From a virus, in the IMG/VR virus record IMGVR_UViG_3300027969_000061, positions 1 through 64,000 of that record: a DNA stretch of 64,000 nt; one strand, given 5' to 3'. Numbering within the stretch: the first letter of the stretch is position 1; the number at the start of each line of letters is the position of its first letter. The notes under the pieces were generated by a model, which did not search any database, was not told where the DNA came from, and saw only the letters and a program-made list of their open reading frames with translations. Made by a program: the position numbers and the translations under genes. Below, piece by piece: positions 15,898 to 62,356 of the stretch.

Positions 15898-16491
15898 ATG
15901 AACCTAGATGATGTAAAGAAATATAAATGTGAAAATGAAAATTTATACGAGAATCCAATACTAGCATCAAGTATTAATCTATTACTAGATTTACCTGATG
16001 TTGTTTGTCGGATTCAAGGAACAAAATATGATTCTGCTCACGGTGAAATATTGACATCTGTGGGTAACGAATATTCAAATGTATTAACTTTGCCTGGTGC
16101 AGAACAATTGATGATATGGATTACTTCAAGAATTCAAGAATCTGCACCACCAGGTAAATCAGTAGATTATATAAAATCTTGGGCTAATAAGATGTTTTAT
16201 GGCAGTCAAGGTTTGGTCCATGCACATACACATCCAGATTTTAAAAATTCTGAGTCGGATTTTGTTGCAATATTTTATGTCCACATTCCCGAAAATAGTG
16301 GTCAATTAGTTTTTATTGATGGTGGTGAGTTTAATAAGAAGTATACTGAATATGATGAATCCAAAATGACAATTATGCAATGTGAATCTGGTGACCTAGT
16401 AATACACCCTCCTACAATTCCCCATGCAGTAACAGTTCATAATAGTCATGTACCTAGATTGTGTTTGGTGTTTGAGGGAATATATAAATAG
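15898..16491 (+). CDS. 2OG-Fe(II)-oxygenase-like or cupin-fold protein
   Basis: 197 aa. HAHTHPDF at about residue 110 and a later LVIHPPTIPHAVTVHN segment followed by PRLCLVFEG form a jelly-roll with candidate iron-binding His and Asp, as in the putative 2OG-Fe(II) oxygenase family that also includes the genes at 19050 and 19580. It differs more from those two than they do from each other. It sits upstream of the late promoter at 16483, so it may be expressed on its own, but its stop overlaps that promoter and it borders the Cys-rich cassette. Confidence 0.6.
   Translation: MNLDDVKKYKCENENLYENPILASSINLLLDLPDVVCRIQGTKYDSAHGEILTSVGNEYSNVLTLPGAEQLMIWITSRIQESAPPGKSVDYIKSWANKMFYGSQGLVHAHTHPDFKNSESDFVAIFYVHIPENSGQLVFIDGGEFNKKYTEYDESKMTIMQCESGDLVIHPPTIPHAVTVHNSHVPRLCLVFEGIYK
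16483..16490 (+). promoter_or_regulatory. T4-type late promoter for the Cys-rich cassette
   Basis: Exact T4 late consensus TATAAATA, 29 bases before the start codon of the Cys-rich gene and overlapping the stop of the preceding gene. The only exact TATAAATA I noticed near a gene start in the window; it argues that the cassette is expressed with virion genes. Confidence 0.6.
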
Positions 16492-16519
16492 TCAATATAT
16501 TTGAAAAAAAGAGATTAAA

Positions 16520-16918
16520 ATGACATTACCTTCTTCTGGACCATTAACAATTAATGATGTGAATATCGAAACCGGCCGTGGTTCAGGTACGGCAACTGGC
16601 CTTGATTGGATACGAGATAATACAAAAGATAATGCCACAGCACTAGGTCAATTATATGATAGGGCTTATTATCAAAGAAATGTTGATGGCAACTGTAATA
16701 ATGGAAACTGCACTTCCAATTGTAATTGTGGTAATATTCAATGTAATAATTGTTTGATTGCTGCTACTGTAAACTGTACCAATTGTGATGCACAATCTTG
16801 GTTACAAGGAAACTGTAACTGTGCTTGTACCTATAATTGCACAACATCAGAAACCTCATACAATTGTAACTGCGCTTGTGCTTGTGCCTGTTTCGTTTGC
16901 GCTTGTGCTTGCTGGTAA
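16520..16918 (+). CDS. Cys-rich protein with virion-like N-terminus: candidate RiPP-type precursor
   Basis: 132 aa in two parts. Residues 1-55 (LPSSGPLTINDVNIETGRG, then GQLYDRAYY) resemble the N-terminal domain of phage structural and tail-fibre proteins. Residues 56-132 contain 20 Cys (59, 64, 68, 70, 75, 78, 86, 89, 99, 101, 103, 107, 116, 118, 120, 122, 124, 127, 129, 131), mostly as NC or AC steps, ending in CACACW. This is followed by radical SAM, oxygenase, halogenase and methyltransferase genes, as in a RiPP cluster. The first part may be a recognition leader or virion anchor, the second the modified core. Site AGAGA before ATG. Alternative: an unmodified disulfide- or metal-rich virion tip. 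Confidence 0.7.
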   Translation: MTLPSSGPLTINDVNIETGRGSGTATGLDWIRDNTKDNATALGQLYDRAYYQRNVDGNCNNGNCTSNCNCGNIQCNNCLIAATVNCTNCDAQSWLQGNCNCACTYNCTTSETSYNCNCACACACFVCACACW

Positions 16919-16942
16919 TTATTTTATAAAATTAGGATTAAT

Positions 16943-18385
16943 ATGATATTTGAAATTTTGGCTGAAAAAATTGGCGGCGACAAGGCCACATTTTATTATG
17001 ATAACGAATTTAATATTCTCAAAGACTCCAATGGAAATGTATTTGAATATCCAGAAGAAAAGAGAATGAAACAGGACAAACAACCTGTAGTTCCGTTTGA
17101 CAAAAACTCTCCACTTAAAAAATCCAAAGCAATTAAATTACTAAAGATTCAGTTAGGTCTCTCTTGTAATTATTCCTGTGATTATTGTTCTCAAAAATTT
17201 GTTGAAAGAGCACCAGAAACCAGTAAAAAAGATATTGATGATTTCTTGACCAAGTTTGATAAAATGGAATTTAGTGAAGAAAAAGGTCTAAAGATTGAAT
17301 TTTGGGGTGGTGAACCATTTGTTTATTGGAAAACATTAAAACCTTTGGCAGAAGCTTTGCGTGAGAAATTTAGCCATTGGCAAAAAGAACCGGTATTTTC
17401 TGTTATCACCAATGGTTCTATTCTTAATAAAGAAATCTGTGCTTGGTTGTATTACATGGGATTTCAAGTGTCTATTTCACACGATGGTCCAGGTCAAGCA
17501 GTTCGTGGTCCAGATCCATTTGATGATCCAGACCAAAAGAAAATTATTCTCGACTTCTATAAGATTATGAATAAGCAGAAAAGAATTAGTTTTAATTCTA
17601 TGATGAATAATAAAAATAGAAGTCGTAAAGAAGTTCATGATTGGTTTATCAAACTCACCGGTGATCCTAATGTTCCTTTGGGTGAAGGCACCATTGTTGA
17701 TGCATACGATGAAGATGGCCTAACAAATTCATTAGATTCATATCAGGATCATTTTGAATATCGTAAACTGGCTTTCAATGACATTCATGCAAACAACGGC
17801 AACATTGGTTTTGGTATGATTATATCTAAGATTGATGAGTTCACAACTAATGTATTATCACATTCTGAATCTAAATATTTGGGTCAAAAATGTGGCATGG
17901 ATGATGTTGATGTCATGGCAGTTGACTTGCGTGGTAATGTAATGACTTGTCAGAATGTGAGTCCATTAGAAATAGCCAAGAATGGTGAAAGTCATTTTGG
18001 CGGCACATTAGATAACATTGATGATATCGAAATCAAATCAGCCACACATTGGATGAATCGTGCTGATTGTGCAAGTTGTCCTGTATTGCACATCTGTAAA
18101 GGTTCATGTATGTTCCTCGATGATAAGTATTGGGAAACATCATGTAATAATGCTTACTCTGATGCTGTTGCTTTGTTTGCTTTGTCATTCCAAAAAATGA
18201 CAGGTTATGTACCTGTTCTAATTAAGAATGATAGATTACCAAAGGATCGTCAAGATATTTGGGGAACAATGTTGCAACACCAAGAAAAAACTAAAAGAAA
18301 AATTATTCCAATCAAAGTGATTTCGGAAGTAGTGGGTAAAATTGATGAAATTGAAGTTTATGGTAAATCTAAAGTAGAGGCATAA
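16943..18385 (+). CDS. radical SAM/SPASM peptide-modifying enzyme
   Basis: 480 aa. CNYSCDYC at residues 75-82 is the CxxxCxxC cluster site; EFWGGEP near 115 is the SAM-binding GGEP motif. The C-terminal part has a SPASM-type pattern: CGMDDVDVMAVDLRGNVMTC, then CASCPVLHICKGSC, then a later SC. SPASM enzymes install thioether or C-C bonds in peptides or act as sulfatase-maturating enzymes. Gene starts 24 bases after the Cys-rich gene with a TTAGGAT site. No precursor-binding (RRE) domain is obvious, but the first 60 residues are a separate small beta-rich region. Confidence 0.85.
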   Translation: MIFEILAEKIGGDKATFYYDNEFNILKDSNGNVFEYPEEKRMKQDKQPVVPFDKNSPLKKSKAIKLLKIQLGLSCNYSCDYCSQKFVERAPETSKKDIDDFLTKFDKMEFSEEKGLKIEFWGGEPFVYWKTLKPLAEALREKFSHWQKEPVFSVITNGSILNKEICAWLYYMGFQVSISHDGPGQAVRGPDPFDDPDQKKIILDFYKIMNKQKRISFNSMMNNKNRSRKEVHDWFIKLTGDPNVPLGEGTIVDAYDEDGLTNSLDSYQDHFEYRKLAFNDIHANNGNIGFGMIISKIDEFTTNVLSHSESKYLGQKCGMDDVDVMAVDLRGNVMTCQNVSPLEIAKNGESHFGGTLDNIDDIEIKSATHWMNRADCASCPVLHICKGSCMFLDDKYWETSCNNAYSDAVALFALSFQKMTGYVPVLIKNDRLPKDRQDIWGTMLQHQEKTKRKIIPIKVISEVVGKIDEIEVYGKSKVEA

Positions 18386-19060
18386 ATGTCGTTAACTATA
18401 TCACCACAATTACAAAAAGCACTAGAGATAGCTTCATCTATTGATGAGGTTATTTCTGTTCAGGCTATCGAACCACCACAAAACATACTAGACCAAATCG
18501 AAAATAAAGATAGTGTGTATTTGGATTTTGTAATTCAAACCAAATCTGGTGAAATGCCTTTTGCTATTGTAGTACCAAAAGTTTTAGTTGATGATGTTGA
18601 TGATTCACTACATATTCCTATTAAAGATTTGTTATCATGCGGTTGCACTCAGGTTGAAGATGGTATTGGTCATATGTGTGGTTATAGTGTATTTGATAAC
18701 ATTGGTAAAATGACATATTATGTTCGTGAGTCCGACCAATACTTGGTAAAACTAATTGATGCCGAAGCACCTTCTATTTTTGAACAAACAGAAAATTTAA
18801 AGAAGTTAATAACAAAACTTGAATCGGTAGATGGTGTAAAACGAATTGTTATTGAAGAAATTGTTGATGATAGTCTAAAACAAAGTTTAGAAGCAGAACG
18901 ACCAGTAATTGTCAAAGCATATATTGATGTTAATAGTGATAAAATTATTGACCATTTTGTTTCATTTGCTGTAACAGAATTAGTTTATGATATTGAAACT
19001 AGTCATGAGTGGGCTGTAAATAATCTTATGGATATGATTGAAAAAAATAATGCACAATGA
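18386..19060 (+). CDS. unknown protein of the Cys-rich cassette, 224 aa
   Basis: Begins right after the radical SAM stop. Acidic; two similar-looking halves each with a strand-rich segment (VISVQAIEPPQNIL..., VKRIVIEEIVDDSLKQSL...), suggesting an internal duplication. A CGC pair and a further Cys lie near residue 88. No family recognised. By position it could be a partner, chaperone or recognition protein for the modification enzymes. Confidence 0.65.
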   Translation: MSLTISPQLQKALEIASSIDEVISVQAIEPPQNILDQIENKDSVYLDFVIQTKSGEMPFAIVVPKVLVDDVDDSLHIPIKDLLSCGCTQVEDGIGHMCGYSVFDNIGKMTYYVRESDQYLVKLIDAEAPSIFEQTENLKKLITKLESVDGVKRIVIEEIVDDSLKQSLEAERPVIVKAYIDVNSDKIIDHFVSFAVTELVYDIETSHEWAVNNLMDMIEKNNAQ

Positions 19061-19583
19061 GAAAATATTATTTGGTACACCGGTTTGGATTCACGATTTA
19101 GATATATCAAATAGTAAACTGGAAGAAGAAGGTCGACCATATAAAACTGGTAACTACTTTGACCTCAATACACCAGAAATCAACAAATTAAAATACACAG
19201 TAAAATCTTACTGTGACCAAATAGCCGAACAATATCATTGGAATAAAAAAGCCACTTATATTGTTGGTCGGCAAAATCCAATATTTCCAGGAGAAAATGA
19301 TACGCCCCATGGTCATCACCATGCAATGATGGTTGCCGTCTATTATCTTCAAGTGCCAGAAAAATCAGGTGACATCATATTGAACGATCCTCGTGGTATG
19401 GTATTTTGGGTTGATCCACAAGTTGTCAATGATGGACCACATAAGAGTTGTCGGTCATATCATCGTATCACACCAAAACCAGGAATGTTGTTGATGTTCC
19501 CAAATTATTTAATTCACTCCGTTGAAACCAATATGAGTAATGAAATGAGATTGTCTATTATGATGGAAATTTATAATCTATGA
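19050..19583 (+). CDS. putative 2OG-Fe(II) oxygenase 1
   Basis: 177 aa. Starts MHNEKILFGTPVWIHDLD; then GRQNPIFPGENDTPHGHHH, VYYLQVPEKSGDIILNDPRG and PGMLLMFPNYLIHSVETN followed by MRLSIMM: the jelly-roll with HxH/D...H and Arg of the phage 2OG-Fe(II) oxygenase family. Such enzymes hydroxylate protein, nucleic acid or small molecules. Start at ATG 19050; an in-frame TTG at 19038 is less likely. Overlaps the upstream gene by 11 bases and the next by four. Tandem paralogue of the next gene. Confidence 0.8.
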   Translation: MHNEKILFGTPVWIHDLDISNSKLEEEGRPYKTGNYFDLNTPEINKLKYTVKSYCDQIAEQYHWNKKATYIVGRQNPIFPGENDTPHGHHHAMMVAVYYLQVPEKSGDIILNDPRGMVFWVDPQVVNDGPHKSCRSYHRITPKPGMLLMFPNYLIHSVETNMSNEMRLSIMMEIYNL

Positions 19584-20116
19584 GTAGAATCAATTTATTT
19601 TCCACACCTGTTTGGACAATAAAGTTAAATGATGATGAATTAAATTCTAACTTATTTTCAATTGCAGGCAACTATAAAGTTGGCACCGATTATTTTGAAC
19701 AGAATAACGAGTCGGTGTTACAATTAAAAAGTCAAATTCAATCCGCTCTATCTGATGTGGCAACAGAATGTGGTTTCTCTACCAATTTTAAATTTACTGG
19801 TCGTCAGAACCCAATGATGCCAGGAAAAAACAATTCACCACACCATCATCCTGATTGTAAGTTAGTTGCTGTGTATTATGTTAAGGTGCCAGAAAAATCA
19901 GGAGATATTTTACTACATGACCCAAGAGGTTCTATATTGTGGTCAGACCCACAAGCAAGAACTGATGTTGCTTGGGAATCACACAGACCTTACCATAAGA
20001 TTACACCGACACCAGGTACATTATTAATATTTCCTGGTTATGTAATACATTCGGTTGAAACAAATCTAAGTAATGAAATCAGAATATCAATTGCAATATC
20101 TACGAGGTTCGAATGA
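19580..20116 (+). CDS. putative 2OG-Fe(II) oxygenase 2
   Basis: 178 aa, clearly paralogous to the preceding gene: FSTPVWTIKLN, GRQNPMMPGKNNSPHHHPD, VYYVKVPEKSGDILLHDPRG, PGTLLIFPGYVIHSVETNLSNE, RISIAIS. Iron ligands His (HHHPD region) and the distal His (IHSVE) are kept, with the Arg for 2-oxoglutarate. Tandem duplication suggests two related substrates or sites. ATGA overlap on both sides. Confidence 0.82.
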   Translation: MSRINLFSTPVWTIKLNDDELNSNLFSIAGNYKVGTDYFEQNNESVLQLKSQIQSALSDVATECGFSTNFKFTGRQNPMMPGKNNSPHHHPDCKLVAVYYVKVPEKSGDILLHDPRGSILWSDPQARTDVAWESHRPYHKITPTPGTLLIFPGYVIHSVETNLSNEIRISIAISTRFE

Positions 20117-21258
20117 AATATACAATTTTAGGTGGCGGCACAGCAGGTTGGTTGACCGCACTATTTGTTAATAAACATTATCCAAACGATGATGTTACTG
20201 TAATAGCCAGTTCCGAAATTGGAATATTAGGTGCAGGTGAAGGCACCACTCCACACTTTATAAATTTTCTTAATCAGTTGGGTATCGATGAAAAAGATAT
20301 CTATGAAAACTGTAAGGCAACCATTAAAACAGGAATTAAATTCACTAATTGGAATGGCGAAGGTGATGAATACTATCACAACTTTAACTGTATAGGTCCT
20401 GATTTACACGCTTTGCATTTTGATGCCAGTTTATTGGCCAAATACTTTCAATCGTTGGCTATCTCCCGTGGTGTGAAACTAATTGATGATGAAGTGGTAG
20501 ATATAAAGTGTAAAGAGAATAAAGATGTGGAAAGTTTTATTCTGAAGTCTGGTAATGTGGAACATACCGATTTTGTTTTTGATTGTTCTGGATTTAGGAG
20601 ATTAATTATCGGAGGGCTTTACAAATCAGAATGGATAGAGTATAATATGCCTTGTAGGAGGGCAATACCATTCTTTTTACCGAATGATAATACCAATCTG
20701 CCTCAGTATACCGAATCAGTTGCAATGAAGTATGGATGGATATGGAAGATTCCTGTTCAAGGTCGATATGGTTGTGGTTATGTGTTTGATTGCACAAAGA
20801 CTACAGATGAAGAAGCCAAACAAGAGATAAGAGATTATCTCGGACACGATTTTGTATCACCCAAGACATTCAACTTTAATGCTGGTTCTTATAAAGATGT
20901 TTGGATTAACAATTGTTTAGGTGTAGGTTTATCTTCTGGTTTTATTGAACCACTAGAAGCTACATCAATATGGATTCAGATTATAACATTGAATACTTTT
21001 ATTGAATGTGATGGCAATAAAGAAAAATTGAACCACGACATGAAAGAAATGAATGAAGATATTTTAGGTTTCTTATACTATCATTACATGACAAAAAGAA
21101 CTGATAGTAAATTTTGGTCAGAGTTTCAAAAAGATAATAAGATGCCTGAAAAATTAAAAATGAGATTAGAAAATAAGTTGATTACAAATAATTTTAGTAT
21201 GTTTACCGAAGAAAGTTGGCAGACAATTAAAGAAGGAATAAATTATGTTAATTCCTAA
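20113..21258 (+). CDS. flavin-dependent tryptophan halogenase
   Basis: 381 aa. FAD-binding GGGTAGW at residues 7-13; lysine in ATIKTGIKF (residue 72) at the place of the catalytic Lys; the diagnostic WIWKIP at 209-214; GFIEPLEATS further on. All hallmark motifs of FADH2-dependent tryptophan halogenases are kept, so chlorination or bromination of an indole is likely. At 381 aa it is shorter than the usual 500 or more, lacking much of the C-terminal part. The Cys-rich protein two kilobases upstream ends in Trp, a possible substrate. A flavin reductase is not encoded nearby; the host may provide it. Confidence 0.85.
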   Translation: MKYTILGGGTAGWLTALFVNKHYPNDDVTVIASSEIGILGAGEGTTPHFINFLNQLGIDEKDIYENCKATIKTGIKFTNWNGEGDEYYHNFNCIGPDLHALHFDASLLAKYFQSLAISRGVKLIDDEVVDIKCKENKDVESFILKSGNVEHTDFVFDCSGFRRLIIGGLYKSEWIEYNMPCRRAIPFFLPNDNTNLPQYTESVAMKYGWIWKIPVQGRYGCGYVFDCTKTTDEEAKQEIRDYLGHDFVSPKTFNFNAGSYKDVWINNCLGVGLSSGFIEPLEATSIWIQIITLNTFIECDGNKEKLNHDMKEMNEDILGFLYYHYMTKRTDSKFWSEFQKDNKMPEKLKMRLENKLITNNFSMFTEESWQTIKEGINYVNS

Positions 21259-21859
21259 ATGCATTGATGGTAAGTTTGAAATAATTGATGTGCTTGATCC
21301 TTGGGATTGCATTAATAATAAGTTGCTTTGGGATATAGGTTCAGTTGATAAAAATTTGATTGATTGGTTTAATATGCAAAAAATTAAACCAAAAACTGTG
21401 TTAGAATTAGGATGTGGTTCGGGAATCAATTCTATTTGGTTATCCAAACAAGGTTGTGATGTTACTGCGATAGATTTTCATGATTCAGCTTTATCAAAAA
21501 CAAAACAAATATCAGAAGAAAATAAAATAAAAATTGATTTATTAAAAATAGACTTGATTAAAGAAAAATGGCCAAAAAAAAAGTTTGATTTTATTTTTGA
21601 CCGAGGTTGTTTTCATATCTTTAATGAATTAGAATGTGAAATTTATACCTCTAAATTGATTGAGTGTTTGACATCTAGTGGAGTTTGGTTAAGTTTGATT
21701 GGAAGTAAAGAACAGTTTGAATGGTTTTGGTCGGCAACAAAAATAATCAATATGGTTGAGCCAAAATTAAAAATTTTAAGTTTAAACAAAACAACACTAG
21801 AAACAATAGATGGCCATGATGTGAAAGCGTGGGCACTATTAACCAAAAGAAAAATATAA
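21245..21859 (+). CDS. class I SAM-dependent methyltransferase
   Basis: 204 aa. VLELGCGSGINSIWLSKQGC (motif I) followed by VTAIDFHDSAL (motif II) and FDFIFDRGCFH (motif III): a small Rossmann methyltransferase of the thiopurine/tellurite-resistance-like group. Overlaps the halogenase by 14 bases and is the last gene of the cassette. Substrate unknown; the cassette context suggests the Cys-rich protein or a product derived from it. Confidence 0.8.
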   Translation: MLIPKCIDGKFEIIDVLDPWDCINNKLLWDIGSVDKNLIDWFNMQKIKPKTVLELGCGSGINSIWLSKQGCDVTAIDFHDSALSKTKQISEENKIKIDLLKIDLIKEKWPKKKFDFIFDRGCFHIFNELECEIYTSKLIECLTSSGVWLSLIGSKEQFEWFWSATKIINMVEPKLKILSLNKTTLETIDGHDVKAWALLTKRKI

Positions 21860-21860
21860 T

Positions 21861-22529
21861 ATGACATTTAATTACTGCCCACCTAAATCATTGCCAGACT
21901 TAAAATCTGAAACCTTTCCTGACGGCAAGAGATACTATACATTGGAAGATGGTACAAAACTTCCATCAGTTACTACTGTGCTTGGCGCCCAAAAGAAGGC
22001 AGGTATTATGGCATGGCGTAAGAAGGTGGGTGAAGAAGAAGCTAACCGAGTATCGAGAATTGCAACAGGTCGTGGTACCGCAGTCCATACATTATGTGAG
22101 AATTATTTAAACAATAATGATTTAGGTTCTGCAATGCCAGATGCACTTGAAATGTTCCTATCTCTCAAGCCATTACTTAATCGTATCAACAACATACATT
22201 ACCAAGAGTGTGCATTGTGGTCCAAACAATTGGAGATGGCGGGTAGGGTCGATTGTATTGCTGAGTTCGATGGCAAGTTATCTGTGATTGACTTTAAAAC
22301 CTCCAAGCGTGCCAAGACAGAGGCACACATTGAGGATTACTTCTGGCAAACAACCGCATATGCCTTGATGTATGAGGAGATGATTGGTACACCTATTGAT
22401 GATATCATTATTATTATGGCTGTGGAGAATGACCTGCCATTAATATTTAAACAGAAAACCGCTGACCACATACCTGGATTGGTGAAAGCAATAAATTATT
22501 ACAAAGAGAGTTCTACAAAGCATAAATAA
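21861..22529 (+). CDS. PD-(D/E)XK exonuclease, MGME1-like
   Basis: 222 aa. TGRGTAVHTLCENYL, then AGRVDCIAEFDGKLSVIDFKTSK (Asp, Asp-x-Lys catalytic motif) and QTTAYALMYEE: the RecB/MGME1-type nuclease fold acting on single-strand DNA ends. Typical T4-like phage gene of DNA metabolism. Its start follows the methyltransferase stop by one base, so it can be co-transcribed with the cassette. Confidence 0.8.
   Translation: MTFNYCPPKSLPDLKSETFPDGKRYYTLEDGTKLPSVTTVLGAQKKAGIMAWRKKVGEEEANRVSRIATGRGTAVHTLCENYLNNNDLGSAMPDALEMFLSLKPLLNRINNIHYQECALWSKQLEMAGRVDCIAEFDGKLSVIDFKTSKRAKTEAHIEDYFWQTTAYALMYEEMIGTPIDDIIIIMAVENDLPLIFKQKTADHIPGLVKAINYYKESSTKHK
22521..22528 (+). promoter_or_regulatory. candidate late promoter
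   Basis: CATAAATA (seven of eight match to TATAAATA), overlapping the nuclease stop codon and 58 bases before the next gene. Predicted transcripts would start at about the hairpin 22533-22556. Confidence 0.4.
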
Positions 22530-26408: not shown

Positions 26409-27680
26409 TTAAACTACTCTGGTGCTGAATAATATCATACTCTGAAATGTCGGTTCTTGATTTCTAACGGATGGCATAGAAATTTTTGTACCAGTCTTAT
26501 CGTAACTCTTGACTGAATTATTATTTACAACAGTAGTAGGATCAGTTTTACTTTGTGGTATACTCAAGTCTAAGTTTTGATTTTGTGCAACATTTAGTGC
26601 TTGACCTGTAGATGAACTCTCAACTGCTGGTGGTTCACCCATAGGAGCACTTGGTGCTGGTGCAGAACTTGGAGATGATGTGATTGGTTCTGGTGTCTTT
26701 ACACCAGAAATTTTTTCGTAAGTATCTCTTTGTTTTTTATAATCTTCAACGGCTTCTAAAGCACCAGGTCCTCGTTTAGCAAAGCCTTGTAGTTGTTGGT
26801 CGTTAAGTTTATCACCTTCATTTTGATATTGCTGAAAATCTTGAATTTCAGCCATCGTTCTTTCATATTCTGGCATCTTCTTGCGTGCTGCAGCTTCATC
26901 TTTAACACCAGCCAAACCACCAACACTTTCAGCTTGTTTTAGTCCCATACTTAACTCTGAATTGGCATCTTCATAACCACTCTTATCAGAGAATAGTTTC
27001 CAAAATAAAACACCTAATGCAACAGAACCTAATATGGCTAATCCCACAGGACTAAATGCAAAGAATTTGGCTACAGTAGCCAATGTTGTAAATGCGGTTT
27101 TAGCTAAAGATAAACCTCCGAATACCGATAACACATCATCTAAAAAATTATTTCTGTTTTCTTCAACTTTTTCAGCTGTTGGCTTTTCTTTAACTCCAAT
27201 AGGTTTACCTGTAATTGCAGCAATCAAAGCCTTATGTTGCCTATCTTTTTCTAATTTGTTTTCTTCAGCAAAAGAATTTTCAGAATCTCTCTGTTTAATC
27301 TTTTCTTCATTTGATTTTTGCATAAACTCATAAATTTTCATTAGAATATCTAATGTTTCATTCTCACCTTCCAGTTTTCCTATTTTTGTTGCTGTGCTGC
27401 CACTATCATCTCTTAATTTTGATCCTGAGAATCGAGCAATATCTTCTTTACTACGACCAAACAATTTGCCTAATGCTGCTGGTGCAAAATTAGATCCACC
27501 AGTTACAAACTTGGCAATATTCAAAGGATCAAATTTCTCTTTGAATCCTTTCATTCTTGCTTGACTTTTTAATGAAATGGTTTTTTTAAGTGATTTACCA
27601 AAACCACCTTCCTGTTCACCTAAAAGAGAACCAAAAGATTTCTTCCTAATTCCTTCAGCCTGTTGATAATTCATATCCAT
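26409..27680 (-). CDS. virion-associated protein, paralogue of the neighbouring GH19 protein
   Basis: 423 aa. Residues 4-75 (IRKKSFGSLLGEQEGGFGKSL, then KEKFDPLNIAKFVTGG) match the N-terminus of the next gene, so the two arose by duplication. Here the rest holds a charged coiled region, a hydrophobic segment (FFAFSPVGLAILGSVALGVLFWKLF, about 210-234) and a Pro/Ser/Ala-rich linker with an Asn-rich end. No lysozyme domain. Probably a baseplate or tail-associated protein that could cross a membrane on injection; inference. Start M1 or M3 both possible. Confidence 0.65.
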   Translation of the reverse strand: MDMNYQQAEGIRKKSFGSLLGEQEGGFGKSLKKTISLKSQARMKGFKEKFDPLNIAKFVTGGSNFAPAALGKLFGRSKEDIARFSGSKLRDDSGSTATKIGKLEGENETLDILMKIYEFMQKSNEEKIKQRDSENSFAEENKLEKDRQHKALIAAITGKPIGVKEKPTAEKVEENRNNFLDDVLSVFGGLSLAKTAFTTLATVAKFFAFSPVGLAILGSVALGVLFWKLFSDKSGYEDANSELSMGLKQAESVGGLAGVKDEAAARKKMPEYERTMAEIQDFQQYQNEGDKLNDQQLQGFAKRGPGALEAVEDYKKQRDTYEKISGVKTPEPITSSPSSAPAPSAPMGEPPAVESSSTGQALNVAQNQNLDLSIPQSKTDPTTVVNNNSVKSYDKTGTKISMPSVRNQEPTFQSMILFSTRVV

Positions 27681-31850: not shown

Positions 31851-32780
31851 ATGGCTATCATTTCTATACCAACATCCATCGGTGGTGTATCAATACCAGG
31901 TAATATCATTAATGGTCCCCTTGGAGCATTGTTTGGTAATAAATTTCGTTCAAACAGTTATCAATATCCTAGAGATTTAGGTTCAGCAACAAAAGGTCAT
32001 ATTGTTCAATTTTCAGTTAATGAAATTGACCCCATTACTTATGAAGAAGCCAAAACATTTATTAATAAATCAACATCAATTGAAGGCGTAAAAGAACAAT
32101 TTAATTCCATTAAAAACTTTTTTAGTGGTGATGCACAAAAGACTTTAAATTTCAAACCAAAGAAGAAACGAAAAGTTGCAACCATTTCTCTATATATTCC
32201 CGATACCTTAAATTTTCAATATACTTCTGGTTATGGTAATTTAAGTTTAGTAGAAGTAGCAAATGAAGTGGCTGGTGTTGTATCAAATGTACCAGTAGTA
32301 GGCACTTTAGGTAAAATAGCCAGTCTTGGACTAACAGTTGCACAATCTAATGCAGCCAAACTTGCACTCTCTACACAAGGCCTTGCAATTAATCCACAAC
32401 AACAATTATTATTTGAGGGTATTGATTTTAGAACCTATCAAATGGCATTTACTTTCACACCATATTCACGCCAAGAAGCTGAAACTGTGAAAGAAATTAT
32501 CAAACTGTTCCGTTATCATGCTGCACCACAAATCACAACGGCAGCTGCTGGTATGTTTTTTGTACCACCATCAACATTTGATTTGGACTTTTTGTTTAAT
32601 GGCCAAAGAAACAATAATGTAACAAGAGTTGCAGAAAGCGTCATTGAAAATATTGATGTGAACTATGCACCTAATGGTTGGGCTGCACACGATGATGGTG
32701 CTCCGGTACAAACAACACTAACAATCAATTTTAAAGAAATCGAACTCATCGACAAAGATAAAATTAAGGCAGGATATTAA
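31851..32780 (+). CDS. 48: gp48-like baseplate tail-tube cap
   Basis: 309 aa. YQYPRDLGSATKGHIVQFSVNEI at the N-terminus, KRKVATISLYIPDTLNF and a C-terminal tube-type fold (FRTYQMAFTFTPYSRQEAETVKEI) match T4 gp48, which tops the baseplate and starts the tail tube with gp54. First gene of the long rightward baseplate operon; overlaps gp53 by one base. Confidence 0.85.
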   Translation: MAIISIPTSIGGVSIPGNIINGPLGALFGNKFRSNSYQYPRDLGSATKGHIVQFSVNEIDPITYEEAKTFINKSTSIEGVKEQFNSIKNFFSGDAQKTLNFKPKKKRKVATISLYIPDTLNFQYTSGYGNLSLVEVANEVAGVVSNVPVVGTLGKIASLGLTVAQSNAAKLALSTQGLAINPQQQLLFEGIDFRTYQMAFTFTPYSRQEAETVKEIIKLFRYHAAPQITTAAAGMFFVPPSTFDLDFLFNGQRNNNVTRVAESVIENIDVNYAPNGWAAHDDGAPVQTTLTINFKEIELIDKDKIKAGY

Positions 32781-46764: not shown

Positions 46765-49700
46765 ATGCCGCTTAATTTTAATGTTGAACCATATTATGAT
46801 GACTTTGATCCTGCCAAAAATTATCACAGGATCCTATTCAAACCTGGTTTTGCCGTTCAAGCTCGTGAACTAACACAATCACAGACTATTCTACAAGACC
46901 AAGTTACTAAATTTGCTGACAACATTTTTAAACAGAATACACCTGTAACTGGCGGACAATTAACAACCAATTTTCAATGTAGTTATATTAAACTACAAGA
47001 AACTTATAATAATGCAGCCATTAATGTTGATGAATTTAACAATAAAGTTATTCAAAATGCTTCTGGTTCAGTATTAGCCAAAGTTATTGCAGTTGTTGAA
47101 GCCACCGGTACAGGCGGTGCTGGTGATCCACCTACATTAATTGTTTCGTATAAATCAGGTGAACAGTTTCAAAGCAATGATGTTATCTATGACAATGGAT
47201 CCAATCTGGCTGCACAAGCCATCAGCGCTAATGCTACAGGTTTAAGTTCAGCAGTTTCAATTGCACAAGGTGTGTTCTATGTTTCAGACAACTACACAAG
47301 GTCTGATGGTATTACAATTTCTACTGGTGCATTTGTTCAAGTTAATCCTCAAACAATTGTTGTTGACAAATATGACAACACACCAACAAATCGTGTTGGT
47401 TTAAATATTACAGAAACAATTGTTGATTATGTTAATGATCCTTCTTTATTAGATCCTGCTATTGGTGCTTCTAACTATCAGGCGCCTGGTGCTGACCGAT
47501 ATAAAATTACTTTAACATTAGAAAGTCGTTCACTATCATTTGGTGACGATGATAGCTTTATTGAATTACTTCGTGTTGAAAATGGTCAGACTGTCAAGTT
47601 GGTTAATGAAACAGTTTACAATGTAATTGATGATTACTTTGCCAAGCGTACCAATGACACTAATGGTGACTTCATTGTTAATGATTATAATTTGACACCA
47701 AAAGCCAATACAGTTAATTCTGCCGAATATGATTTAGGTATTTCAAAAGGTATTTCTTATGTTCGTGGATATCGTTTAGAAAATCAATCTGATGTAACCC
47801 TAACAAACGACCGAGCAAGATTACAATCTGATGTAACCAACAATCCAACTTTTGTTGACTATGGTAACTATTTCTATGTCAATTCAGCCAATGGTGTATT
47901 TGATGTTACAACTTCGCCTCAAATTGATTTTCACACAGTAGACAAAACAGCTATCGTAACAACAAATCAATCATCATACAATTCTACTCGTGCAGCTACA
48001 GCTTATATTCGTAGCATGGTGTATGATAGCACATCAAACACAGCCAATGGTTCTGCATATGTTTATAAGGCGTATGTTTACAATATTCAAAATCAAACAT
48101 TATCAGCCAATGTTTCACAAATTGCACCAGTCAATGCAAACAATAGTTATATAAGATTGCCTAGTACCAATCAGTTTTCAAATGTGGCCAATGCCTATAC
48201 TGGAGTAACAGTCAGTATTGATTCAGGTACTTCTGCTGGTGATTTCAGAACAATTACAACCTACGATGCAGCTGCTAAAATTGCATATGTTGACCAACCA
48301 TTTACTGTAACATTGGCCAACAACTCGGTGTTTACTCTCCGTTTTGATACTACTGACTTTGAAACAATGATTAAGAGTACCTCTGGTACACCTTATTCTA
48401 TTACAGCCAATGCTGCAATTAATAATTTAAATAAAGTAAACAATGTTGCAGAAGGTGATGTTGTTTTACAAAACCCAAATGCACCAGAACTATTGTTTAC
48501 AATTGGTAACCCTTTTGTATCGTATGCAAACAATTCTTCATACACCACATCACAGGTGTTCCGTAATGTTTCGTTCACAACATCAGGCGGAAACATTGTT
48601 GCTCAACTAACATTTGGTTCTGCACCTACATCAACACTTCGTTTCTTAGGTAACGGCACATTATCATCTGATGCTGTGTCACAAAACTTTCAAATTATTG
48701 TTACTAATCCATTATCAAGTGGATTAAGAGTTGGTCAATTGTTACCATGGAATCAAGGTAGTAGAACTTGTGCAATCACAGGTTCAGGTGGTACAGCTAC
48801 ATTCACAACACCAACATCTGATTTAGGTCCATTCACCGCAACAATCATTGCTAAGGCTTTTGTTAGTAATGGTAATGACACTAACTTTGTATTGAAAGCC
48901 AAAAATCTGGTTGAAGGTAATACAACAGGCGTAAACATTACAGGCACAACTGTTGAAACATATACCAAAGTTGATTTAACAAATGGTCAAGTGTATGTTG
49001 CAAATACTGGAATTGTTGCTCCTGGTCAACCACAAAAACTATACATTACAGATGCAAAACGTATAGTTAAAATTATTGATACAAAATCTCCTGGCACAGC
49101 TGCAACAAATGCCATGTTGACCAATCCAATCTATGATGTTACATCTAGATTCACATTTGATAATGGTCAACGAGATTCATACTATGACTTCGCTAGTATT
49201 ACATTAGGCGTGGGTCAACCACAAATTGATGGTAATTTATTGGTTATATTAGATTACTATTCGACCACTGGTGGTGACGGATACTATTCTGTCATGTCTT
49301 ATTTGTCACCAGTATCATCTGCACCAGAGAGTTATGCTGAGATTCCATCTTACATGGCTTCTAGTGGCAATTACTATCAGTTAAGAGATTCTTTGGACTT
49401 TAGACCATCATTAATTAATGCTCAGAGTTCATTTATAATCCGGACTTCAAGTTCTGGTTCAGGTGCAGCAGGCGCATATATTCCTGTAGATTTAACTGAA
49501 TTTGAATCTGATTATGGATTCTATCTTGGTCGTTTTGACAAATTAGTATTAAGTAAAGACCGTGCATTTGAAATTGTTCAAGGCACACCATCGACCAATC
49601 CAATTCTACCAATTGAACCAGATGGTTCGTTGGTGATTGCAAATCTTTACCACGACCCATACACCGCATATATTCCAGGTGAAGCCACAGGTGTATTGCC

Positions 49701-52700
49701 AAGTTTATCTATTGAGCGTGTTAAACACAAGCGTTGGTTGATGCGTGATATTTCTGATTTAGAAACTCGTGTTAACAATATTGAATACTACACAGCACTC
49801 AATATGTTAGAAAAAGGTGCATCTTCTTTACAGATTCCTGATGGTAACGGATTAAATCGTTTCAAAAATGGTATTTTAGTTGATGACTTCTCTAGTTATG
49901 CTGCAGCTGATACTGCTAGTTCCGATTATTTGGCAACAATCAATCGTAGAACAAAACAGATGACTGCATCACAAGATGTGCAAAACTTCCCATTGCAATC
50001 ATTGTCACTAGTATATAATATGGGCCAGTTGGATGCTACAAGTGCAAACAATCTTGGTTATAATATTTCTCAGAGCTCTACATCAAACTTCTTTACATTA
50101 CCATACTCCACATCTAATGTGGTAACACAAAGAATTGCTTCACGCACAGTTAATTTAAACCCATTCTCTGTATCATTGAATTCTGGTGTATTAACACTCA
50201 GTCCTCCAATGGACAATTGGGTTGATACACAAAAATCACCTGACCTGTTGATTGTAGATCCAAATTTACAAGTATATCGTGCAAGTGACCAAGTTAATGT
50301 GTTACAAGTAGGTGATTGGAAAACAACTGTTGCAACATCAACCGATAATGTGGTTGCGGCTGGTCGTAACTGGCGTGTCAATCAGGTTACCACATATACA
50401 ACAGAACAACAAAAGGTTGTGTTAGGTAACTACGACAAACTTAATTCGAGTTATGTTGAAACTGCTGGTTTCATTACTGATGTTAGTATTTTGCCATATA
50501 TCCGTTCACAATTCTTATTCTTTAACACTTATGGTCTAACAGTTAATACCAATGTTAATGCGTATTTTGATGGTGTAAGTGTTAATAAGTATGTTCGCAA
50601 ACCAAATATCATTGAATTGACCGGTGTAACTGGTTCATTTAAAGACGGTGATATTATTGGTTATTATTCTGCTGGTAATTTTAGACCTGCTGCCAAAGTT
50701 GTTTCTTACTATGTTAATCCAGCTGCCAATACAACTGCTCGCCTCTATGTTGTTGGTGATATTGTTGGTCAAACATTTACTGCGGGTGGCGTATTACAAA
50801 ATGCTCAATTTAATGCTGCTGGTCAATATCAGTCAACTACAGCACAAGGAACCATTGCATCGTTTAGACATAACTCTGGTCAAGTCGTTAATGCCAATAC
50901 ATCAACATCTATTACATTAGGTGCCACAGCATCTACAACTGATATCTATACAGGTAACACAATTTATATTATTAATGGCACGGGTGTTGGCCAATCTGCA
51001 ACTATTACTGCATACAATGGTGCAACTAAGTTGGCAAACCTAAGTTCTTCTATTACAACTGCCAATGGCGACATCTATTCAATTGGTACAATGAAAACCA
51101 ATGAAGCGGGTATGATTTCGGGTATCTTTGCATTACCAGGCGGAGTATTCCATACAGGTCAAAGAACATTTAGAGTTGATAACTCAATTGGTGGTAATAT
51201 TAGTTCTGCACAGACTTTTGCAGAGGCCACATTCTATGCTTCTGGTTTACAACAGACTAAACAAGGTGTAAACTATGCATCTTCAATTGACTCTGCCAAG
51301 AATACTTTCACACAAAGTAATGAAAGAACCAACATCACTTCTTATACTTACACAACAGTATGGGATCCAGTTGCACAAACATTTATTATTGATAAAGAAA
51401 ACTATCCAAATGGTGTCTTTGTTGATTCAATTAAATTATTCTTTGCAACAAAAGCTGATGAGTTCTCACCAGTAACATTGTCTATTGTTGGTACACTAAA
51501 CGGATATCCAAATGGTGAAACATTGGATAATTCTCAAGTTACATTGACATCAGAGAATATTAATGTATCAAGCAATCCACATTATTTGGATCCTACCACA
51601 TATACTGTGTTTAAGTTCCCAGCACCAGTATATTTGGAATCTAACAAATTATATGCTGTTATTGTAAAATGTCCAACATCTAATGATTACACAATTTATA
51701 CTGCACAAAATGGTGACACAGCAATTTCATCTTCTGTTAAGAATTTGCCAAGTGACCCAACACCAACAACAATAACAAAGATTAACTCTGCACCATATGT
51801 TGGTTCATTATTCTTATCACAGAATTCACAAACATGGACTGCGGATCAAAACGAATCAATGATGTTTACAATGGATCGTTGTGTGTTCTCTGTTGGCACT
51901 CAACCTACATTACAGTTTGTAGTGCCAAATCGTTTACCATATCGTAAATTAACAGAACAAGATATTTCATACTATCTAAGTCCAAACACGATTAATACAT
52001 CCATCTCCTCGGCAGCCAATACTAATGTGGTCGTTGATGCATTTAATATTTCAACATCTGACTTTGTGCCGGGTAGCACATCACTCAGTTACACATATGG
52101 TGCCACATTAAATTCAACTAAGACAGCTGCACCAACACAGTCAGTTACTCCTGGTAAATATGGTACACCAATGTATGATGACATCTATCTAAATGATGGA
52201 TTAGGTGAGCGTGTATTGGCAGCTAACTCTAATACATCATTCTCATTGTATGCTAACATGACCACAGTAGATGATGCTGTGTCACCAATGATTTCAGATG
52301 ATGGATTAGGTGTATATACTATCACATGGAACATTAATAACTTAGAGTTATCTAATAGTATGATTACTGTGGCCAATGGTGGTTCTGGTTACAATGTCAA
52401 TACAACTTCCGTAACCATTACATCTAATACAGGTACTGGTGCAACAGCAACTGCCAATGTAGTTGGTGGAATAATTAAGAACATTTATATTACAAATGGT
52501 GGTTCTGGTTATGCAACAACACCAGTGATTACAGTTGCAGATGCCAACTCCTCACCAGGAATTGGTGCAACAGTTACAGTAGCAGGCGAAACATCACCAG
52601 CTGGTGGTAACGGCCAAACACGATACATTACTAAGAAAGTTATTTTGGATCAAGGATTTGATTCAGGTGATTTACGAGTATACTTTACTGCTTATCGTCC

Positions 52701-53028
52701 AGTCAATACAAACATCTATGTTTACTATAAGATTCTTTCTAGAAGTGATACACAGACATTTGATTCAGGCAACTGGCAGTTAATGTCGTTAATTAATAAC
52801 ACTAGTTCATTGTATTCACCAACAAGAGATAGCACTTATGAATTTGTAGCTGCACCTGGTGCTGATGGTGTTGCACAGAACTATGTTGAATATACTAGTG
52901 GTGTAACAGGTCAAACATACAACAATTTTAGTCAGTTTGCAATCAAGATTGTATTGGCAACATCTGATAAGACAGCAGTACCATTCTTATCAGATATTCG
53001 TGCAATCGCTTTACCATCGGCGGTGTAA
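46765..53028 (+). CDS. giant DUF4815-type baseplate/tail protein, 2,087 aa
   Basis: N-terminus NVEPYYDDFDPAKNYHRILFKPGFAVQARELTQSQT is the hallmark of the DUF4815 family, found in T4-like phages where it likely takes the place of the gp10-type wedge protein. Beta-rich, low-charge sequence throughout; no catalytic motif seen. Two GGSGY modules lie near residues 1,872-1,945. The C-terminal region (TYNNFSQFAIKIVL, FLSDIRAIAL) resembles carbohydrate-binding or fibre-attachment domains. Largest gene of the window. Confidence 0.75.
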   Translation: MPLNFNVEPYYDDFDPAKNYHRILFKPGFAVQARELTQSQTILQDQVTKFADNIFKQNTPVTGGQLTTNFQCSYIKLQETYNNAAINVDEFNNKVIQNASGSVLAKVIAVVEATGTGGAGDPPTLIVSYKSGEQFQSNDVIYDNGSNLAAQAISANATGLSSAVSIAQGVFYVSDNYTRSDGITISTGAFVQVNPQTIVVDKYDNTPTNRVGLNITETIVDYVNDPSLLDPAIGASNYQAPGADRYKITLTLESRSLSFGDDDSFIELLRVENGQTVKLVNETVYNVIDDYFAKRTNDTNGDFIVNDYNLTPKANTVNSAEYDLGISKGISYVRGYRLENQSDVTLTNDRARLQSDVTNNPTFVDYGNYFYVNSANGVFDVTTSPQIDFHTVDKTAIVTTNQSSYNSTRAATAYIRSMVYDSTSNTANGSAYVYKAYVYNIQNQTLSANVSQIAPVNANNSYIRLPSTNQFSNVANAYTGVTVSIDSGTSAGDFRTITTYDAAAKIAYVDQPFTVTLANNSVFTLRFDTTDFETMIKSTSGTPYSITANAAINNLNKVNNVAEGDVVLQNPNAPELLFTIGNPFVSYANNSSYTTSQVFRNVSFTTSGGNIVAQLTFGSAPTSTLRFLGNGTLSSDAVSQNFQIIVTNPLSSGLRVGQLLPWNQGSRTCAITGSGGTATFTTPTSDLGPFTATIIAKAFVSNGNDTNFVLKAKNLVEGNTTGVNITGTTVETYTKVDLTNGQVYVANTGIVAPGQPQKLYITDAKRIVKIIDTKSPGTAATNAMLTNPIYDVTSRFTFDNGQRDSYYDFASITLGVGQPQIDGNLLVILDYYSTTGGDGYYSVMSYLSPVSSAPESYAEIPSYMASSGNYYQLRDSLDFRPSLINAQSSFIIRTSSSGSGAAGAYIPVDLTEFESDYGFYLGRFDKLVLSKDRAFEIVQGTPSTNPILPIEPDGSLVIANLYHDPYTAYIPGEATGVLPSLSIERVKHKRWLMRDISDLETRVNNIEYYTALNMLEKGASSLQIPDGNGLNRFKNGILVDDFSSYAAADTASSDYLATINRRTKQMTASQDVQNFPLQSLSLVYNMGQLDATSANNLGYNISQSSTSNFFTLPYSTSNVVTQRIASRTVNLNPFSVSLNSGVLTLSPPMDNWVDTQKSPDLLIVDPNLQVYRASDQVNVLQVGDWKTTVATSTDNVVAAGRNWRVNQVTTYTTEQQKVVLGNYDKLNSSYVETAGFITDVSILPYIRSQFLFFNTYGLTVNTNVNAYFDGVSVNKYVRKPNIIELTGVTGSFKDGDIIGYYSAGNFRPAAKVVSYYVNPAANTTARLYVVGDIVGQTFTAGGVLQNAQFNAAGQYQSTTAQGTIASFRHNSGQVVNANTSTSITLGATASTTDIYTGNTIYIINGTGVGQSATITAYNGATKLANLSSSITTANGDIYSIGTMKTNEAGMISGIFALPGGVFHTGQRTFRVDNSIGGNISSAQTFAEATFYASGLQQTKQGVNYASSIDSAKNTFTQSNERTNITSYTYTTVWDPVAQTFIIDKENYPNGVFVDSIKLFFATKADEFSPVTLSIVGTLNGYPNGETLDNSQVTLTSENINVSSNPHYLDPTTYTVFKFPAPVYLESNKLYAVIVKCPTSNDYTIYTAQNGDTAISSSVKNLPSDPTPTTITKINSAPYVGSLFLSQNSQTWTADQNESMMFTMDRCVFSVGTQPTLQFVVPNRLPYRKLTEQDISYYLSPNTINTSISSAANTNVVVDAFNISTSDFVPGSTSLSYTYGATLNSTKTAAPTQSVTPGKYGTPMYDDIYLNDGLGERVLAANSNTSFSLYANMTTVDDAVSPMISDDGLGVYTITWNINNLELSNSMITVANGGSGYNVNTTSVTITSNTGTGATATANVVGGIIKNIYITNGGSGYATTPVITVADANSSPGIGATVTVAGETSPAGGNGQTRYITKKVILDQGFDSGDLRVYFTAYRPVNTNIYVYYKILSRSDTQTFDSGNWQLMSLINNTSSLYSPTRDSTYEFVAAPGADGVAQNYVEYTSGVTGQTYNNFSQFAIKIVLATSDKTAVPFLSDIRAIALPSAV

Positions 53029-60647: not shown

Positions 60648-61223
60648 ATGAGAGGTGAATGGTGTTATTTTGGGAAGTATTTTACTCCCGAGCAGTGCAG
60701 TAGAATATTAGAAAATGGATTAAAAATACCGGCACAAGACGCCAAGTTAGGCGTTGCCGGTATGAATGATTATAGTAATGATTCGTTCCGCAAATCCAAA
60801 ATCCGTTTTATTCAATCTGATAACCCCGATTTTAAGTGGCTCTTTGATGAGTTATTAAAAATGGGTATGCAGGCCAATAAAGATTGGTTCAATTTTCATA
60901 TTACCAATCTATCATATATTCAATTAGCCGAATACGATGAATCATATCAAGGTGAATACAAGAAACACCATGATGTGTTTTGGGTAAACAATGATAGTTA
61001 CCATCGTAAACTTACCTGTGTAATTCAACTTACAGACCCATCAGAGTATGAGGGTGGTGACCTAGAGTTGTTTGAACTATCTGAATATCCAAACAAAGAC
61101 GAACTACGCCAGCAAGGCACAGCAATCTTCTTCCCGTCTTTTATTCCACATCAAGCACATCCAGTAACAAAAGGTAAACGATATAGTATTGCAGTATGGT
61201 TTGAAGGAGATAAGTGGAAATGA
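60648..61223 (+). CDS. 2OG-Fe(II) oxygenase, prolyl-hydroxylase/PKHD type
   Basis: 191 aa. KKHHDVFW carries HxD, PSFIPHQAHPV the distal His, and KRYSIAVWFEG the 2-oxoglutarate Arg: an intact double-stranded beta-helix dioxygenase of prolyl-4-hydroxylase type. Not close to the two oxygenases at 19050/19580. Overlaps the glycosyltransferase and lies one gene before a collagen-like fibre, so hydroxylation of that fibre is a good hypothesis. Confidence 0.8.
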   Translation: MRGEWCYFGKYFTPEQCSRILENGLKIPAQDAKLGVAGMNDYSNDSFRKSKIRFIQSDNPDFKWLFDELLKMGMQANKDWFNFHITNLSYIQLAEYDESYQGEYKKHHDVFWVNNDSYHRKLTCVIQLTDPSEYEGGDLELFELSEYPNKDELRQQGTAIFFPSFIPHQAHPVTKGKRYSIAVWFEGDKWK

Positions 61224-62356
61224 GATTTCATATTTTAGGATTACCCCATACTGTATCATCAAAAGAATATAATGCGTGTGCATATACTCAGAAAGTGGTT
61301 AAATTTGGTAAGATGATGACTGAAAGAGGTCATGAAGTGATTCATTATGGCCATGAAGAATCGGACTTACCATGCACAGAACACGTTACTGTATTGTCTA
61401 CTGAAGATTGGAAGAAAACATATGGTGACCATGACTGGCGTAAACACTTCTTTAAGTTTGACACCAACGACCATGCATATCAAACTTTCTATCGTAATGC
61501 TATTGAAGAAGTAGGTAAACGCAAACAAAAGAATGACTTTATTCTTCCGTTTTGGGGTTCAGGTACTCGACCAGTCTGTGATGCACATCCAGATTTAATC
61601 TGTGTAGAACCAGGAATTGGTTATGCAGGTGGCCATTGGGCACGATTTAAAATCTTTGAATCTTATGCCATCTATCACGCATACTATGGACTAGATTCAG
61701 TAGGTACTTGTAAGCAAGACTGGTACGATGCAGTTATTCCAAACTACTTTGACCCCGAAGATTTTGTATATACACCAGAGGAGAAAGAAGATTACTTTCT
61801 ATTTCTAGGTCGTGTATATGAGGGTAAAGGAGTTAATATTGCGGTACAGGCAACTGAAGCCATTGGTGCCAAGTTAATTATTGCCGGACAGAACTCACTC
61901 AAAGATATGGGTTACAAAGAAGTACCATCTCATGTTACTGAAATTGGTTATGCGGATGTGGAAACTAGAAAGAAGTTGATGTCCAAAGCCAAAGGTGCAT
62001 TTGTGGCATCGTTATACACCGAACCTTTTGGAGGCGTTCAGGTCGAGTGCCTTTTCTCAGGTACGCCTACGATAACAACTGATTGGGGTTCGTTCACGGA
62101 GAACAATATCCATGGTGTTACGGGGTATAGGTGCAAGACCTTTGAACAGTTTACTTGGGCAGCTAAGAATATTGACAACATTAAACCACAAGCCTGTAGG
62201 GACTTCGCACTAAATAACTTTAGTCTGGATGTGGTAGCACAGAAATATGAAGAATATTTTCAGTCAGTATTAAATGTTTATAATGGTGATGGATGGTATG
62301 AAAAGAATGATAACCGGACCGAATTGGACTGGTTAACCAAATATTATCCTGCCTAA
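61220..62356 (+). CDS. GT4-type glycosyltransferase
   Basis: 378 aa. Start at ATG 61220 (GGAGA nine bases upstream), four-base overlap with the oxygenase. C-terminal Rossmann half: YFLFLGRVYEGKGVNIAVQA, LIIAGQ, and ASLYTEPFGGVQVECLFSGTPTITTDWGS with the E-x7-E signature of retaining GT-B/GT4 enzymes. Moves a sugar from a nucleotide donor to an unknown acceptor. The epimerase at 12056 may supply a donor; acceptors may be the Thr-rich collagen-like fibre next door. Confidence 0.8.
   Translation: MRFHILGLPHTVSSKEYNACAYTQKVVKFGKMMTERGHEVIHYGHEESDLPCTEHVTVLSTEDWKKTYGDHDWRKHFFKFDTNDHAYQTFYRNAIEEVGKRKQKNDFILPFWGSGTRPVCDAHPDLICVEPGIGYAGGHWARFKIFESYAIYHAYYGLDSVGTCKQDWYDAVIPNYFDPEDFVYTPEEKEDYFLFLGRVYEGKGVNIAVQATEAIGAKLIIAGQNSLKDMGYKEVPSHVTEIGYADVETRKKLMSKAKGAFVASLYTEPFGGVQVECLFSGTPTITTDWGSFTENNIHGVTGYRCKTFEQFTWAAKNIDNIKPQACRDFALNNFSLDVVAQKYEEYFQSVLNVYNGDGWYEKNDNRTELDWLTKYYPA

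Follow-up and report, generated by a model that had tools for sequence, protein, structure and literature searches.

In quinohemoprotein amine dehydrogenase a single structural polypeptide has its Cys and Trp modified by the SPASM enzyme QhpD and the flavin enzyme QhpG. In the SCIFF/CteB system and with the ranthipeptide enzyme PapB, a gene for a Cys-rich substrate adjoins that of an enzyme with a radical S-adenosylmethionine (SAM) core and a seven-Cys SPASM domain. Halogenation of a ribosomally made precursor at its C-terminal Trp, by a flavin enzyme, is known from SrpE/SrpI, a leader-guided pathway of ribosomally synthesized and post-translationally modified peptides (RiPPs), where the brominase SrpI needs that Trp on the Cys-derived, enzymatically modified core LCCCW (PMC10286304). 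In this study we describe a phage gene cassette that resembles each of these systems. It (Table 1) lies in positions 1 to 64,000, hereafter the window, of the 108,197-base IMG/VR record IMGVR_UViG_3300027969_000061, and codes for a Cys-rich protein of 132 amino acids (aa), a radical SAM/SPASM enzyme, a 224-aa protein, two 2-oxoglutarate (2OG)-Fe(II) oxygenases, a flavin halogenase and a methyltransferase. All cassette elements named in the original prediction were recovered in place by open reading frame (ORF), Pfam and motif checks. We propose that the cassette probably makes and chemically matures a tail-tip protein of the virion. What was directly seen is the linkage of the genes, a tail-fibre context in relatives, an exclusive match of terminal Trp and halogenase, and a late-promoter-like motif.

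Several differences set the cassette apart from its closest counterparts. As a proteusin, SrpE has a leader resembling nitrile hydratase, and a YcaO enzyme makes its thiazolines; the phage cassette instead pairs a tail-type protein with 2OG oxygenases and a radical SAM enzyme. With SCIFF/CteB and PapB it shares the enzyme architecture, the adjoining Cys-rich gene and a CteB-like first auxiliary cluster, but it stays below the equivalog cut-offs, gives no match resembling a RiPP recognition element (RRE), has a substrate of a tail-fibre family and includes no peptidase or exporter. QhpD and QhpG both give sub-cut-off matches in the cassette (TIGR03906, 2e-17; QhpG NF049967, 6e-8), yet their substrate is an unrelated bacterial enzyme subunit and QhpG hydroxylates Trp. 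Halogenases of the same PF04820 type occur in T4-like phages, namely VirX1 and those of cyanophages and of HTVC008M, the last being 40% identical to the window protein. Finally, tail fibres with Peptidase_S74 or Hint domains have the same C-terminal architecture in relatives, a Cys repeat followed by a self-cleaving domain; here a Cys comb comes with a dedicated radical SAM enzyme, and the window protein has no such domain and ends at its Trp. The cassette does link the gene of a small precursor to that of a maturase. We nevertheless call it RiPP-like rather than a RiPP cluster, because no RRE was found and leader peptidase and exporter are missing; relatives have only the self-cleaving Hint or S74 domains of their fibres.

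The C-terminal region of the 132-aa protein is a comb of Asn/Ala/Asp-Cys repeats, ending in ...NCNCACACACFVCACACW (last letters FVCACACW). When viral contigs were searched with a profile of the radical SAM enzyme, 528 relatives were confirmed and 80 kept, and ORFs with Cys repeats lay near most of them. Searching the other way round, with only the Cys-protein alignment as query, met a radical SAM gene at 79 of 80 viral loci; at the single locus without one the sequence stops 159 bp downstream. A third search, for DNA coding for (Asn-Cys)4, was blind to both alignments and gave at least 102 in-frame ORFs that are 60 aa or longer. Among the matches listed, 91 of 102 in-frame ORFs had the repeat no more than 20 aa from the C-terminus, and the enzyme was found with 59 of the 60 C-terminal-repeat ORFs having at least 3.5 kb downstream. 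The Cys repeat and the radical SAM gene are almost inseparable, and the enzyme–substrate link proposed at the outset withstood the refutation test set in the original prediction, since Cys genes without the enzyme gene are not routine in either search. A chance Cys ORF is ruled out by conservation across many viruses. Nor is the cassette a chance arrangement, because its linkage is conserved in other viruses, and the set of precursor, radical SAM enzyme, 224-aa-type protein, oxygenase and halogenase is kept down to 52% halogenase identity.

In relatives, Cys repeats are fused to tail-fibre proteins or encoded among them, and to judge from the encoded proteins the repeat is the C-terminal tip of the fibre. 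In the cultured Achromobacter phages JWF and 2-1 the Asn-Cys (NC) repeat lies within the tail-fibre gene, a radical SAM gene with 42% identity to that of the window stands two genes on, and the block of both sits between the tail-tip gene and the lysis genes. The 483-aa JWF fibre protein reads NCNCDCNCNCSC and then at once enters a Hint domain (CFPAGT..., PF05203, 3e-12). Hint (intein-like) sequences (CFPAGT...) come immediately after the fibre Cys repeat at loci L002, L095, L147, L151, L152, L156 and L157. The arrangement suggests self-cleavage that would free the modified tip. At L027 and L075-L077 a Peptidase_S74 domain follows the Cys region. This family cleaves just before its catalytic Ser (P586-S587 with K592 in MyRF; S911 in endoNF; PMC8326128); the sequence SDDTLK of L027 and L076 shares the spacing of Ser and Lys at +5, and the mature chain would therefore end ...CFW. 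Cys-tailed proteins lie by J-type or fibre genes in Burkholderia, Limnohabitans, Polynucleobacter, Paraburkholderia, Rhodobacterales and other genomes, which where inspected are evidently prophages, and several prophage Cys proteins match tail-fibre PHROGs. In the Polynucleobacter prophage L087 the order is J, an S74-type fibre, a short precursor like that of the window and the radical SAM gene, followed by a protein of the 224-aa type with one domain only.

Two further observations concern this wider family. Where the gene of a Cys-repeat protein lies downstream of the radical SAM gene (the downstream type of L016-L085, e.g. L017:9483-10382), the protein has a long C-terminal domain (CSKIICTKLYEFG...), for which the one protein scanned gave no Pfam or PHROG match. 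A conserved family of about 285-330 aa, of unknown function, is present in 58 loci (L090:6483-7337; e.g. L053:9475-10467). It lies between the Cys-tailed fibre and the radical SAM gene in prophages and after the radical SAM gene in some phages, and is likely a second partner protein of the system.

The window halogenase is, by family, a flavin-dependent tryptophan halogenase. It scores 312 bits against a Pfam gathering score of 21, carries GGGTAGW, WIWKIP, the catalytic-Lys motif TIKTGIKF and EPLEA, as expected of PF04820, and has PrnA, RebH and VirX1 (6qgm) as its relatives in the PDB. After deduplication, and where 3 kb of downstream sequence is present, a terminal Trp is found in 20 precursors (18 as encoded, 2 only after predicted S74 cleavage), and a halogenase accompanies all 20; among 107 precursors without terminal Trp, a halogenase match was found with 2. 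Divergent halogenase-like flavoproteins are encoded at L053:10495-11679, L073:10468-11631 and L084:10409-11617, where the precursors end NCNCNC. Two of the three were inspected and have neither WxWxIP nor EPLE motifs, and these loci were set aside as exceptions since the two inspected carry a divergent homologue. Because both apparent exceptions lack the motifs, the count for the canonical halogenase, deduplicated by radical SAM sequence, becomes 20 of 20 precursors with C-terminal Trp where it is present and 0 of 108 where it is absent. In an alignment of the 20 precursors the C-terminal Trp is the sole invariant one; the Trp of the WLQ motif was rejected as halogenation site, as Y or F replaces it in 8 of the 20. 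Hence the halogenase is predicted to act on C-terminal Trp132. As a general component of the system the halogenase found no support: it is restricted to one or two lineages.

By its tail-tube cap and its baseplate wedge and hub proteins at 31-46 kb the phage is a T4-like myovirus, with a long-tail-fibre-type protein at 53 kb of the window. The motif before the precursor, which from what is known of T4 would fit a late promoter of the T4 type, occurs as TATAAATA in a single exact copy at 16483 (+), both strands of the window considered, against 8.7 copies expected. In all 20 halogenase-clade relatives, as far as they have upstream sequence (L007 starts inside the gene), NATAAATA precedes the precursor, mostly at -27 to -37 and in two viruses at -11 or -14. 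Of 51 genes in the window, 10 have TAAATA 20-45 nt upstream (0.64 expected). Six of the ten belong to the tail region, namely that of the baseplate tube cap at 31851 and those at 55651, 57464, 59065, 60648 and 62394. Over the whole window TAAATA is depleted (62 found, 102 expected), yet it is enriched at this distance before genes, which we read as a sign that the phage uses it as a late-promoter motif. Its presence would fit co-expression of the precursor with virion genes.

How might the cassette work? Late in infection, when the virion proteins are made, the 132-aa protein would be expressed too. It would be anchored to the tail by its N-terminal segment, leaving the C-terminal Cys comb as the exposed tip. 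The SPASM enzyme would then act on the comb, most likely by thioether cross-links that make it rigid, with the 224-aa protein perhaps helping as a substrate adaptor. One or two of the 2OG oxygenases would hydroxylate the Cys region and, in this lineage, the flavin halogenase would then halogenate the C-terminal Trp. The product is likely a stable or reactive tip that contacts the host.

The nature of the cross-linking step depends on the radical SAM enzyme. Its CNYSCDYC forms the CxxxCxxC core at C75, C79 and C82, and these residues and the seven SPASM Cys (C317, C336, C376, C379, C385, C389 and C401) are invariant across eight aligned sequences; the seven-Cys pattern is kept in 127 of 128 relatives. 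The enzyme scores as a SPASM maturase (TIGR04085, 32 bits against a cut-off of 27). Among the NCBIfam SPASM equivalogs (PapB, SCIFF, geopeptide, HxsB and others) no curated cut-off was reached, SCIFF giving 51 bits against 425; as even the best match, PapB, stays far below its cut-off (80 bits against 340), we place the enzyme outside the described maturase families. In the alignment the Cys of the first auxiliary cluster are like those of the thioether-forming CteB (5wgg) and unlike those of the anaerobic sulfatase-maturating enzyme (anSME). CteB leaves a free site on its first auxiliary cluster, and because the cluster here is CteB-like, thioether formation is our first choice; the enzyme most likely forms thioether cross-links on the Cys comb. 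It is unlikely, though worth serious thought, that the enzyme does other chemistry on the comb: epimerisation to alternating D-residues in a beta-helix, conversion of Cys to formylglycine, or C-C or C-N cross-links. The strict X-C-X-C alternation resembles alternating-residue RiPPs such as polytheonamide, a beta-helix with alternating D-residues. The JWF enzyme is annotated as an anSME, and anSME 4k37 gives the longest PDB alignment of the window enzyme. However, the enzyme does not qualify as an anSME: the extra auxiliary-cluster Cys of 4k37 is missing in 127 of 128 relatives, TIGR03942 gives 50 bits against 349, and the precursor has no CxPxR-type motif. The best NCBIfam score belongs, moreover, to a thioether enzyme, PapB, even if far under its cut-off. 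A second, B12-type radical SAM enzyme is encoded in halogenase clusters, identified at L009:4980-6476 (TIGR04072/PhpK-like matches) with similar ORFs at L011, L056, L199 and L214; it would suit such other chemistry, and C-methylation of the same substrate is possible. No gene of this type was seen beside the window cassette.

Whether the Cys protein is a virion part or a released product had been left undecided by the original prediction. The first half of that choice is favoured by the fibre architectures and tail-gene neighbours in relatives and by the late-promoter-like motif, while nothing in the cluster points to a released antibacterial. It is true that the enzyme set is like that of bacterial RiPP clusters, that the precursor is short in this lineage, and that its Trp-terminal Cys core recalls the SrpE core LCCCW brominated by SrpI (PMC10286304). 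Still, the same type of repeat tips long tail fibres in relatives, with self-cleaving fibre domains, the motif is common to precursor and tail genes, and no exporter, leader peptidase or immunity gene was found among the cluster genes. A secreted or lysis-released antibacterial or signalling product outside the virion is thus quite improbable. Binding of a metal (Zn, Cu or an Fe-S cluster) by the comb at the tail tip, with the radical SAM enzyme making a minor change or having another substrate, would explain 20 Cys in 132 aa, and iron-binding tail tips are known from the T4 short fibre and the P2 spike. This we consider very unlikely given that repeat and radical SAM gene are almost never found apart, the absence of a His/Asp ligand pattern and the alternating X-C geometry, which is unusual for metallothioneins. 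Least of all do we expect the enzymes to act on unrelated small molecules or host proteins, as chance cargo of an accessory hot spot rich in 2OG oxygenases. Marine T4-like phages (HTVC008M, P-SSM2 and Syn1) do carry stand-alone halogenases and oxygenases, with no radical SAM or Cys-rich protein annotated beside them, and the methyltransferase is specific to this phage; but the conserved gene set from precursor to halogenase and the match of C-terminal Trp with the halogenase speak against it.

Several points weigh against a matured tail tip as well. The cassette lies about 15 kb from the main tail genes in this window. For the N-terminal segment of the precursor PHROG comparison gave no more than phrog_26817, whose function is unknown, at E 0.0036 over aa 1-36, and the AlphaFold model of the precursor is uninformative (predicted local distance difference test, pLDDT, 46). 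By tblastn the protein resembles the tail fibre of a Vibrio phage weakly, at E = 1. An RRE or PqqD-like domain was not found (only Radical_SAM/Fer4_12 in Pfam and none in the 25 best NCBIfam matches), although a diverged RRE could escape such searches. The oxygen-sensitive clusters of the enzyme would have to cope in infected aerobic cells, and an enzyme of this class could also carry out other radical SAM chemistry. On the tree of radical SAM sequences Trp and halogenase each show no more than about two changes; the 20 of 20 match therefore does not represent many independent observations and a Fisher p-value overstates the evidence; a phylogeny-aware test had too few independent pairs and no power. 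Every chemical step, the incorporation into the virion and the biological role are what we infer.

Turning to the other cassette proteins, all five gene junctions from the radical SAM gene to the methyltransferase gene abut or overlap. Oxygenases 1 and 2 are 48% identical to each other; the first is absent in L007, the second is kept in L005-L008. Homologues of the third oxygenase lie near the cluster in many relatives at varying positions, and 2OG oxygenases in general vary in number and place. They probably hydroxylate the same Cys region. The 224-aa protein has no Pfam, PHROG or NCBIfam match. In each of the 20 loci of the halogenase clade a gene of its type follows that of the radical SAM enzyme, and the family occurs in 50 loci, doubled or, at the same place, single (106-129 aa). 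The AlphaFold model (pLDDT 76) repeats its secondary-structure pattern, and a fold search against the PDB gave nothing at E<=0.001. Profile comparison showed no similarity to the 240-aa neighbour in JWF or to the 285-aa family of prophages, so common membership was rejected. We tentatively consider it a substrate adaptor. The methyltransferase was rejected as a core step, being confined to two loci, one in this phage and the other in a contig that belongs to it; in L005-L007 the halogenase gene directly meets the exonuclease gene with no methyltransferase between. It appears to be a recent, accessory addition of uncertain role. In the window a PD-(D/E)XK exonuclease gene at 21861 nearly abuts it.

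Table 1. Coordinates of the cassette and its flanking features in the window.
Feature	Position	Strand	Remarks
Late-promoter-like motif TATAAATA, T4-type	16483..16490	+	~30 nt before precursor start codon
Cys-rich substrate protein, 132 aa	16520..16918	+	N-terminal LPSSGP-type segment ~aa 1-57; Cys-repeat region with 20 Cys ~aa 58-132
Codon of C-terminal Trp132, predicted halogenation site	16913..16915	+	Only invariant Trp in 20 precursors beside canonical halogenase
Radical SAM/SPASM enzyme, 480 aa, predicted maturase of Cys region	16943..18385	+	PF04055 1.9e-7
Protein of 224 aa, apparently doubled ~110-aa domain, possible substrate adaptor	18386..19060	+	
2OG-Fe(II) oxygenase 1	19050..19583 (ATG 19050; alternative TTG start 19038)	+	PF13759 1e-19
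2OG-Fe(II) oxygenase 2, paralogue of oxygenase 1	19580..20116	+	PF13759 2e-20
Flavin-dependent (tryptophan) halogenase, 381 aa	20113..21258	+	PF04820 Trp_halogenase 6e-93
SAM-dependent methyltransferase, accessory	21245..21859	+	PF13649
Third 2OG-Fe(II) oxygenase, directly upstream, possible pathway member	15898..16491	+	PF13759 5.5e-9

Elsewhere in the window, a 2087-aa protein (46765-53028) matching phrog_358, of unknown function, is encoded between the baseplate-type genes and the fibre-type gene at 53251. A strong glycosyltransferase match (phrog_3408) at 61214-62356, in the tail gene region, is possibly another virion-modifying enzyme. Adjoining an endolysin-like gene there is a 422-aa protein (26409-27680, minus strand) without PHROG match.

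Tail tips decide host range and are generally taken as plain protein, sometimes with bound metal. We know of no dedicated maturation pathway of this sort described for a virion tail tip, and for this reason we rate the system as new. In the open-access literature, a search that leaves subscription papers and most preprints outside, we met no account of phage tail tips modified by radical SAM enzymes and none that connects SPASM enzymes with phage tails; two papers related to JWF do not mention the radical SAM enzyme, and a paper on mining of phage RiPPs does not mention radical SAM tail systems. Each enzyme family is already known, and what is new, as far as found, is the enzymatic maturation of a tail tip. 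The recurrence of the core set in hundreds of phages and prophages suggests that chemically modified tail tips are widespread and undescribed. In its widest form the proposal, which to us stands about evenly between true and false, is that in T4-like myoviruses, siphoviruses and many proteobacterial prophages at least, a RiPP-like pathway is dedicated to building the tail tip. A SPASM enzyme would cross-link an X-Cys comb, which in some cases a self-cleaving Hint or S74 domain would set free; the comb would also be hydroxylated and, in one lineage, capped with a halogenated C-terminal Trp, giving a non-canonical tip that meets the host surface. The system is open to direct study in cultured phages and prophages. 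If the proposal is true, native substrates would be found for the orphan radical SAM enzymes of phages (phrog_1802) and for one clade or more of viral halogenases, and halogenases with genetically encoded protein substrates would be on offer. Phages would then finish their host-contacting tips with covalent chemistry so far known mainly from peptide natural products.

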